This document shows positions 20,474-31,172 of a stretch of 64,000 nt of DNA, piece after piece; the stretch's first letter is position 1; every line of letters starts with the position of its first letter. The DNA is from Pontimicrobium aquaticum (GTDB lineage: Bacteria > Bacteroidota > Bacteroidia > Flavobacteriales > Flavobacteriaceae): positions 62,001 through 126,000 of the forward strand of contig NZ_SUPL01000007.1 of the NCBI RefSeq assembly GCF_005047595.1, given 5' to 3'. A program made the position numbers and the translations under genes. The notes below the pieces were generated by a model. It was not told the origin of the DNA. It saw only the letters and a program-made list of their open reading frames with translations, and did no database searches.

Positions 20474-20657
20474 AACCCATTGTACATTTTGATTAAAACT
20501 TATCAATTCGAGTGAATTTCACGATTGAGAATAAGTGAAATTAGTATCGAGAATCAAATTTTTGTTTCAAAAGAAGTGTTCTCTATACAATTTTCTATCG
20601 AAAATCACTCGAACTGACATAAAATAATGTTTAATGAGTCAAAATGTACAATGGGTT
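20474..20657. repeat. Nested palindromic repeat (MITE-like), 184 bp
   Basis: The outer ends are a perfect 19-bp inverted repeat, AACCCATTGTACATTTTGA (20474-20492) and its complement (20639-20657). Inside lies a second palindrome whose ends TTCGAGTGA (20507-20515) and TCACTCGAA (20605-20613) resemble a dispersed intergenic repeat common in Flavobacteriaceae. No coding capacity. Probably a non-autonomous element or REP-like unit that also separates two transcription units. Confidence 0.75.
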
Positions 20658-24509: not shown

Positions 24510-25106
24510 TTAACTTTTGTGTCTTTCTTCAAGAACTTTCACTATATCTTTTAAAGTAAAACCTTTTGCTTGCAGTAAGATCAAATAGTGAAATAGTAAA
24601 TCGGCGCTTTCATTTAAAAACAGATTATCATTATTATCCTTAGCTTCAATAACCACTTCTACTGCCTCCTCTCCTACTTTTTGAGCCACTTTATTAATTC
24701 CTTTCTCAAATAACGAAGCAACATATGATTTTTTAGAATCAGCATTTTTTATTCGGTCTTCAATCGTGTTTTCTAATTTAGAGATGAAACCAAAATTTTG
24801 TTTGTTTGCTTCATTCCAACAGGTATCAGTTCCTTTATGACATGTTGGTCCTTGAGGATTCACTTTTATTAAAAGTGTATCATTGTCACAGTCGTTTTTT
24901 ATGGATATAAGATCTAAAAAATTACCACTTTCTTCACCTTTCATCCATAATCGTTGCTTGCTTCTACTAAAAAAAGTGACTCTTTTTGAGTCTATTGTTT
25001 GCTCTAATGCTTCAGCATTCATATAACCAAGCATAAGTACCGTTTTGGTTTCTGCATCTTGGATGATTGCTGGAATGAGTCCTTCTGAATTATATTTTAT
25101 TTCCAT
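24510..25106 (-). CDS. hisI: Histidine biosynthesis bifunctional protein HisIE
   Basis: 198 residues with two enzymes of the pathway. N-terminal phosphoribosyl-AMP cyclohydrolase (1-about 105): MLGYMNAEAL, FFSRSKQRLWMKGEESG and the zinc-binding GPTCHKGTDTC. C-terminal phosphoribosyl-ATP pyrophosphatase (about 110-198): KVGEEAVEVVIEAKD. Together they carry out steps 2 and 3. It is the last gene of the his operon, starting inside the end of the receiver-like gene (17-base overlap). Confidence 0.95.
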   Translation of the reverse strand: MEIKYNSEGLIPAIIQDAETKTVLMLGYMNAEALEQTIDSKRVTFFSRSKQRLWMKGEESGNFLDLISIKNDCDNDTLLIKVNPQGPTCHKGTDTCWNEANKQNFGFISKLENTIEDRIKNADSKKSYVASLFEKGINKVAQKVGEEAVEVVIEAKDNNDNLFLNESADLLFHYLILLQAKGFTLKDIVKVLEERHKS

Positions 25107-25443
25107 TATCTTTTTTATTTATATAACTTATATAGTTATTTAATAATCCTCTTATTTGTTCTGCAGCGACTGGATTTGCTGAATGTACTTTAAATTGTAA
25201 GTTTCTTAAATCTAATCCTGATTCATATACCAACCATTTAGCAGCAGCATAACCATCAGGTGCGATCTCTCCTCTATTATCTAAACCCAAATCATTATCA
25301 AAACTTATGAATTCTGGCAGACCATTTTTCTTAATATAATTAATGAAAGCATCATAAGTTCTTACAATATCAAACTCCGACTCTTGGGATTTATCATAAA
25401 CCATTTCTATAGTTCTTATATCATCTAAAAATAGTTTTTTCAT
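25090..25443 (-). CDS. Receiver-like (cREC-type) protein inside the his operon
   Basis: 117 residues. [10 protein letters not shown] at the start and [10 protein letters not shown] (about 47-56) recall the acidic pocket and phospho-acceptor strand of response-regulator receivers, but the order matches the compact cyclic-phosphate-processing receiver-like family: LDDxR, then SFDxDLG, then a C-terminal HSANP segment. No output domain. It lies between hisF (ATGA overlap) and hisIE (17-base overlap), so it is certainly co-expressed with them. A link to a phosphoribosyl intermediate or regulation is possible but not shown. Confidence 0.72.
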
Positions 25444-26196: not shown

Positions 26197-27000
26197 TTAG
26201 TTGCTTAATATAAATTGTTCTAATTGTTTTAAACTGATTCGGTTTTCATAGATTGCTTTCCCTATAATGACGCCTTCGCAACCCAATTCTTTGAGCTTTG
26301 GTAATTCATTATAAGTTGAAATGCCTCCAGAAGCTATGAGTTTAATTTTGTTTGTCACCTTGAGCGTAGTCGAAAGGTCTTTTTCCTTATAACGAAATTT
26401 CTCGTCGCTTTGCTCTGTCGAAATGACATTACATTCATTCAAAATTCTTCTATATAAACTAAACGAAGGCCCTTCAAGCATGCCATCTTTAGAAATATCT
26501 GTACAAATCACATATTTGATGCCCTTAGATTGATAGTTTTTTATAAATGGAATAACCTCTAAACTACTTTCTTCTTGCCAACCAGAAATTGCAATTTTTT
26601 CATTATTGCAATCTGCACCAAGAATTATTTTATCAGAACCATAAGTTTCAATCCAAGAATTAAACACTTCAGGGTTCTTAACTGCAATACTACCTCCAGT
26701 TATTTGATTTGCACCAGATTCAAAAGCAATTTTCAAGTCTTCATTTGACTTTAAGCCTCCTCCAAAATCTACCTTTAAATTTGTTTTAGTTGTTACTTGC
26801 TCTAAAACTTTATAGTTAACTATATGACTCGCTTTAGCACCATCTAAGTCAACTACGTGCAAAAACTCAATTCCTGAATCTTCAAATAGCTTTGCAACTT
26901 CTAAAGGATTTTCATTATACACTTTTTTTGTGTTATAATCTCCTTTGGTAAGCCTTACACACTTTCCTTCTATGATATCTATTGCTGGTATTATTCTCAT
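26197..27000 (-). CDS. hisA: HisA (phosphoribosyl-formimino-AICAR-ribotide isomerase) carrying an in-frame palindromic insert
   Basis: 267 residues, about 25 longer than usual (around 240-245). TIM barrel with the two catalytic acids in place: Asp8 ([14 protein letters not shown]) and Asp168 ([14 protein letters not shown]). Phosphate-binding DFGGGLKS and LIASGGIS are intact. Residues about 191-216, between LYRRILNEC and KIKLIASGG, have no counterpart in the family and are encoded by a palindromic repeat (26353-26428). The frame is kept through it, so the protein is probably functional, with an extra loop after barrel helix 6. Fourth step of histidine synthesis. Confidence 0.93.
26353..26428. 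repeat. Palindromic repeat inserted in hisA (RPE-like)
   Basis: TGTCACCTTGAGCGTAGTCG (start at 26353) and an imperfect inverted counterpart ending TTTGCTCTGTCGAAATGACA (26428), with TGTCA/TGACA ends. The segment TGAGCGTAGTCGAA recurs exactly in the intergenic repeat at 31137-31163 (opposite strand). 76 bp, about 26 codons, inserted in frame like Rickettsia palindromic elements. Confidence 0.8.
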
Positions 27001-27006
27001 ATCTAT

Positions 27007-27074
27007 TTCCTGCGAAGGCAGGAATCTTTTTTAATTAATAATTTATTGATGTGGATTCCTGCCTTTGCAGGAAT
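27007..27074. repeat. Two inverted copies of a TTCCTGC palindrome between hisA and hisH
   Basis: TTCCTGCGAAGGCAGGAA (27007-27024) and ATTCCTGCCTTTGCAGGAAT (27055-27074) are each hairpins, and one is essentially the reverse complement of the other. The stretch between hisH and hisA contains nothing else. It may form a large hairpin in the his mRNA. Confidence 0.75.
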
Positions 27075-27088
27075 GACAAACCAAGTTT

Positions 27089-31123: not shown

Positions 31124-31136
31124 TTTTAGGTTTTTA

Positions 31137-31163
31137 GACACTTCGACTACGCTCAGTGTGACA
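31137..31163. repeat. Palindromic repeat between hisG and hisD
   Basis: The palindrome ACACT / AGTGT (31138-31142, 31155-31159) encloses TCGACTACGCTC. Its complement shares TGAGCGTAGTCGAA with the insert in hisA, so both belong to one family. It may attenuate or process the his mRNA. Confidence 0.75.
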
Positions 31164-31172
31164 ATTATCGTG

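Follow-up and report, generated by a model that had tools for sequence, protein, structure and literature searches.

In-frame insertion of a REP-like repeat dimer in hisA of Pontimicrobium aquaticum and recurrent repeats in the same HisA loop of Flavobacteriaceae

REPINs are pairs of REP units, one inverted relative to the other and separated by a spacer, and are associated with RAYT transposases. Rickettsia palindromic elements (RPE) are dispersed palindromic repeats that lie in frame in unrelated genes; several families are described, and the host proteins are presumed to be functional (PMC10969869). The GTAG and CGTC REPs of Di Nocera 2013 are small hairpins present as singles and as dimers, including heterodimers, and some of them lie within ORFs and code there for 20-30 residues (PMC3733652). 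In that article, CGTC families are recorded in Bacteroidetes among other phyla, apparently without a dedicated transposase, and one common intragenic site is noted, in recB of two Xanthomonas (PMC3733652). A search of the open-licence literature gave no paper that treats repeats in hisA or in proteins of Flavobacteriaceae.

In the window, the whole stretch of 64,000 nucleotides that was analysed, an ORF at 26197-27000 on the reverse strand encodes a HisA of 267 amino acids, and the product was assigned to Pfam PF00977 (His_biosynth) by domain search with an E-value of 1.3e-71. The gene is host to an inserted element of 76 bp at 26353-26428, to which no strand is assigned and which encodes most of HisA residues 192-216. 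Its ends are TGTCA/TGACA, and neither the target duplication nor the parent transposon of a MITE was noticed for it. The initial annotation had described a palindromic repeat inserted in frame, making HisA about 25 residues longer than normal. The in-frame insertion was confirmed by the open frame, by copies elsewhere and by alignment with four congeners (G001-G004), whose HisA proteins of 242, 247, 245 and 251 amino acids are without the insert; the gain compared with G001 is 25 residues. A fifth congener, G005 (86% complete), had no usable hisA, and the congener comparison was made with the other four. The two halves are distinct REP-like units in opposite orientation, which leaves the palindrome imperfect. 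A type A unit of 27 nt is located at 26353-26379 on the forward strand (TGTCACCTTGAGCGTAGTCGAAAGGTC), with a stem CCTT/AAGG flanking the core GAGCGTAGTCGA, and a type C unit of 35 nt at 26394-26428 on the reverse strand (TGTCATTTCGACAGAGCAAAGCGACGAGAAATTTC); they are separated by a spacer at 26380-26393. The element is thus a dispersed repeat with inverted halves, as annotated, but not one palindrome.

Half of the repeat had also been annotated as recurring between hisG and hisD. A second type A unit was found in this intergenic gap, at 31136-31164 on the reverse strand, and was 86% complementary to 26352-26380 in the window comparison. The core GAGCGNAGTCGA occurred twice in the window, at 31143 and at 26362 (the match at 26362-26373 within the hisA element), compared with 0.01 occurrences expected from shuffles. 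Elsewhere in the same genome (G000) a 33 bp stretch of the type A part was found with 97% identity at G000:C1:373423, and the type C unit gave a 38 bp match of 87% at G000:C19:235391. Searching this genome with the element resulted in 15 matches at E ≤ 10, five of them below 0.03 with the hisA query itself included; exact cores numbered two for type A and zero for type C. These few matches indicate that the genome of the window is poor in such repeats. Folding of the element as a single strand was not better than that of shuffles (RNA z -0.67; DNA z -0.32), and neither was the DNA fold of the type C unit strand by itself. The repeat claim is therefore based on the copies elsewhere and not on folding energy.

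A second palindrome was observed at 27007-27073 (ATTCCTGCGAAGGCAGGAAT ... ATTCCTGCCTTTGCAGGAAT), in the hisH-hisA gap and immediately upstream of the hisA start; it presumably resembles the dRS3/CGTC-1 kind. A palindrome of like kind is located immediately 5' of hisA in L038, L041 and L107, and the matches to the GATTCCTGC palindrome in loci of relatives lie upstream of the hisA start and are hence non-coding. Rfam returned only four sub-threshold matches resembling plant microRNAs, all of them at this palindrome (26997-27083). Further away, at 20474-20657, a perfect 19 bp terminal inverted repeat, its arms 146 nt apart, forms an intergenic, MITE-like structure, whose end sequence was found in 0 of the 295 loci examined. 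The hisF-hisIE gap of the his operon holds a gene for a protein of 117 residues (25090-25443, reverse strand), which matched Pfam cREC_REC with an E-value of 1.8e-24. cREC_REC is a cyclic-phosphate processing receiver domain.

An AlphaFold2 model of the window HisA, made from 30 aligned sequences, had a mean pLDDT of 83.9. Residues 194-215 were below 50 and were flanked by an intact helix (180-190) and an intact strand (220-224); another loop, residues 19-24, was likewise below 50. The insert is positioned in the loop from helix 6 to strand 7, where 4gj1 has by alignment a short turn, its helix ending near residue 190 and its strand starting at 197. Among the matches listed in a structure search, the best 35 were all HisA or the related PriA/HisAP enzymes. 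D8 and D172 of the window HisA align with Salmonella D7 and D176 (HisA entries titled D7N and D176A) and were invariant across the 30 aligned sequences, in agreement with the annotation that frame and active-site residues are kept. In (beta/alpha)8 barrels the helix-to-strand loops are found on the face opposite the catalytic face. From this general knowledge the inserted loop would be expected to point away from the active site. The insert-bearing HisA presumably still works as an enzyme.

The same HisA loop was compared in the 80 named loci nearest by HisA sequence (mostly Flavobacteriaceae, two otherwise titled) and in five loci of the window genus. The resulting 85 tree rows correspond to 83 distinct genomes, because two pairs of rows, L017/L035 and L018/L037, are each identical on the tree. 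A recognisable repeat was found in the loop in 28 of the 85 rows, of type A in 12, B in seven, C in five, D in three and F in one; the kinds were labelled by eye, some of them from motifs that hisA had first revealed, and for decayed loops the label is ambiguous. Such an insertion had been thought rarely noted in Bacteroidota. With a recognisable repeat in 28 of 83 distinct related genomes, it is not rare in Flavobacteriaceae; in the other 55 genomes no recognisable repeat was found in the loop. The loop has about 25 residues without an insert and 31-57 with one. The reading frames of the inserts vary among genomes, type B being read as CHSEQSEES and type C otherwise. Type C was also seen by eye in hisA of L038, L039, L041 and L087. 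Related clades such as Gelidibacter keep a 31-residue loop alike in sequence. Such 31-residue loops, in Gelidibacter and elsewhere, may be old decayed repeats, as may the Muricauda-type loops (GSGVED), and all of these were left unlabelled. A phylum-wide sample of 148 genomes gave a match in 128 and sequences for 29 besides the window's own. Type A was present in three of 14 other family members (L207, L208 and L212; L209 was ambiguous), and no recognisable repeat was observed in the 15 HisA loops from outside Flavobacteriaceae, of which the loops alone were read.

A tree was made from HisA with the loop removed, HisH, HisF and HisB; on such a quick tree gain and loss are indistinguishable. 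With six labels, one for each of the five kinds and one for none, the 85-row tree requires 27 changes, compared with a mean of 26.9 for shuffled labels, and the repeat kinds therefore show no clustering on the tree. Presence and absence alone require 22 changes, at least 16 of which are forced by well-supported branches. Sister species were found to differ, with type A in L036 versus none in L045, type B in L061 versus an unlabelled loop in L075, type F in L063 versus type D in L086, and type A in L047 versus type C in L087. L076, L083 and L088 have one common type A insertion, which argues against pure turnover. One ancestral insertion with inheritance only was ruled out by the 27 changes, despite this common insertion. 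Nested repeats were observed in hisA of L088, where a second copy lies inside the common insertion, in PurL of L237, in TrpF of L289 and in L008 of the window's own genome (G000:C12 near 102436), as if an existing unit had been the target. Because the same loop is struck repeatedly by different repeats in relatives, it resembles a natural landing pad at which parasitic DNA extends a functional protein by some peptide.

The kind of insert in hisA was linked to the repeat content of the genome. Pattern counts were made in each genome, less the copy in hisA; reversed control patterns gave zero save one hit. The 11 type A carriers had a median of 33 copies (range 7-81) versus 3 in the 69 others (top 66; p=4.4e-6). 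For type B, the median was 4 in seven carriers versus 0 in 71 others (top 21; p=5.0e-6), and the three type D carriers had 25, 21 and 0 copies versus a median of 0 in 75 others (top 20; p=0.047). Four cross-kind tests, of one kind versus carriers of another, gave p values of 0.20, 0.10, 0.26 and 0.97. The content tests ignore kinship, which matters little here because the labels are scattered. Exact type A cores reached 81 per genome, and type C was scarce throughout, with at most four matches in each of the 14 genomes (of 80) that had any. G050 (66), G059 (53) and G077 (31) were rich in type A yet had none in hisA; in the latter two a type A core lies within PurL. G055 has type D in hisA and 0 exact type D copies elsewhere.

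Exact cores were found 20 times in hisA over 19 of the 80 his loci (A 12, B 6, D 2), and zero times in the coding DNA of the other his genes in these loci (hisB, hisC, hisF, hisH, hisIE and hisD; 310,772 bp). The motifs were partly first seen in hisA, so the count favours this gene and the zero in the other his genes is the informative part. The non-coding DNA of the 80 loci contained 18 more type A matches and no exact core of types B and D. When mismatches were allowed, 24 matches were found in 21 loci, the coding ones in hisA only. A genome-wide search for the repeat inside genes had been proposed. In G011, G022 and G053, six of 63 sampled places were within an ORF (hisA twice, PurL, LeuRS, a ParC-type topoisomerase subunit and TrpF), but most, 57 of the 63, were outside ORFs by the criterion adopted here.

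Recurrent in-frame repeats of several kinds, nested ones included, were observed at one site each in PurL (the linker; L236-L265) and TrpF (a loop; L266-L295). In 37 of 77 genomes the PurL linker is nine residues long, and in another 17 of the 77 its length is 12-37. Repeats were recognisable by eye in 13 of 30 PurL loci (L236-L239, L241, L244, L246-L248, L251, L258, L260 and L261), a sample biased to carriers because it was taken as the top 30 matches of a query that has the insert. Type A cores were located within the PurL matches of G011, G012, G049, G059 and G077 and within the TrpF matches of G011, G022, G023 and G069. Together with PurL and TrpF, hisA brings the recurrent sites to at least three.

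The type A hairpin was analysed for covariation in 109 distinct contexts of its core, many of them from loci picked for holding the motif, a choice with no bearing on the pairing result. Watson-Crick pairs were found in 102 of the 109 contexts at flanking position 3 (shuffled mean 29.9, maximum 46) and in 101 at position 4 (shuffled mean 34.1, maximum 49). Restricting the set to unique flanks gave pairing in 81 and 80 of 88. All four Watson-Crick types were present, and in the 109 contexts pairing was absent beyond the fourth flanking position. The fixed core and the free but compensated stem show that the type A hairpin is maintained, and suggest that the hairpin is what the mobilising machinery recognises. 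For the type B/F core, stem covariation in six contexts only was not beyond shuffles.

Y1_Tnp genes were present in 40 of the 80 genomes. Across these genomes repeat counts and Y1_Tnp counts showed no correlation (Spearman 0.02 for type A, 0.14 for D and 0.00 for B). Genomes rich in type A were found both without Y1_Tnp (G011, G022, G040, G050, G059 and G077) and with it (G018, G023 and G039). A RAYT/Y1 transposase was rejected as the mover, since the counts are uncorrelated and several of the richest genomes have none. The flanks of five Y1_Tnp genes were inspected, and the gene of G004 was flanked by a repeat of another kind. This Y1 transposase gene (L115, G004:C77:43789-44133), with its flanking CGACTCCTACGGAGTCG-type palindrome, is possibly a separate REP-transposase pair in the genus of the window.

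Very probably, a REP-like dimer was copied or transposed into hisA and survived in frame in a flexible loop, a few permissive sites being reused. The dimer would consist of two REP-like hairpin units, copied perhaps via a single-stranded hairpin. It would have survived because its total length kept the frame, the added residues fell in a flexible loop and the catalytic residues were untouched. The units are dispersed in Flavobacteriaceae genomes, with most sampled copies outside genes, but a few permissive places in proteins accept them repeatedly, namely the loop of HisA, the interdomain linker of PurL and a loop of TrpF. At such sites units are gained, kept across speciations in some clades, nested, decayed and lost, as seen from the tree, the sister pairs and the nested copies. 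Survival at the tolerant sites would be neutral, and nested insertion could be one route of replacement.

Alternatively, the machinery could prefer the hisA, PurL and TrpF sites, using for example the remnant of an earlier repeat as target. Such targeting would account for the 20 matches in hisA versus none in the other his genes, which have linkers too, and for the different kinds in sister species, but 55 of 83 related genomes have no recognisable repeat at the HisA site. The nested copies, and the decayed type B-like loops seen by eye in the congeners G002 and G004 where the window has C and A, also fit it; the scattered copies elsewhere imply a machinery that is not site-specific. Targeting is considered unlikely, and is not rated lower because of the absence from the other his genes, their linkers notwithstanding. 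It is likewise doubtful that hairpins whose core is fixed and whose stem is arbitrary are preferentially written onto remnants of earlier repeats in HisA, PurL and TrpF of Flavobacteriaceae; if true, one protein loop rewritten repeatedly would be a natural peptide-display pad.

Selection of the added loop for an altered HisA function or protein contact is improbable. It could explain the recurrence at one place and the similar 31-residue loops retained by clades such as Gelidibacter, but not readily inserts that vary in kind and frame among relatives, a loop predicted to be disordered, and the 55 of 83 genomes without a repeat. Even less probable is a role at the RNA level, by which a hairpin in the his messenger would tune processing or translation of hisF immediately downstream (hisA stop at 26197, hisF from 26195). 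The covarying type A stem would fit such a role, but the window element is absent in most relatives; an RNA element was rejected because RNA and DNA folds were like those of shuffles and Rfam gave no match at 26353-26428. An assembly or sequencing artefact is hardly credible, because the insert, known here from assembled sequence alone, has counterparts in 27 other rows, which come from independent assemblies and likewise carry a repeat in frame in this loop.

Intragenic repeats are known as scattered oddities, whereas here one enzyme loop is struck independently in many lineages. The before and after pairs of sister species are thus a natural experiment on the entry of mobile hairpins, the sites that accept them, and the decay or retention of the peptide. 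The same experiment bears on the machinery that moves units with a fixed core and a free stem. The repeats explain odd lengths of HisA, PurL and TrpF in Flavobacteriaceae, and mark tolerant sites for protein engineering.

Compared with the known systems, the hisA element resembles REPINs in being two inverted REP units with a spacer. An association with a cognate Y1 (RAYT-type) gene, as in REPIN-RAYT systems, was not found, the counts being uncorrelated. REPs are units of 20-40 nt with a hairpin, a trait seen for type A in the covariation (102 and 101 of 109), and occur in many copies mainly outside genes, as was found in relatives; the window's own genome has only the two exact type A cores. 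The GTAG/CGTC REPs, to which the repeats are likened by description, differ in that here the HisA loop is occupied in 28 of 83 genomes, in addition to PurL and TrpF, and in the free but compensated variation of the type A stem. REP-like elements in proteins were thus already known, and the recurrent use of one site is what is added here. The behaviour of Rickettsia palindromic elements, to which the initial annotation had compared the insert, was found insofar as a dispersed palindromic repeat lies in frame in a coding gene whose enzyme appears otherwise intact from its sequence. The likeness is one of insertion mode, and does not extend to size, kind and frame: RPE are about 100-150 bp, whereas the hisA element of 76 bp consists of REP-sized units of two kinds, read in several frames among genomes. 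Also unlike RPE, one HisA loop is struck by different kinds in many lineages. The hisA element works like Rickettsia palindromic elements but stands closer to REP sequences.
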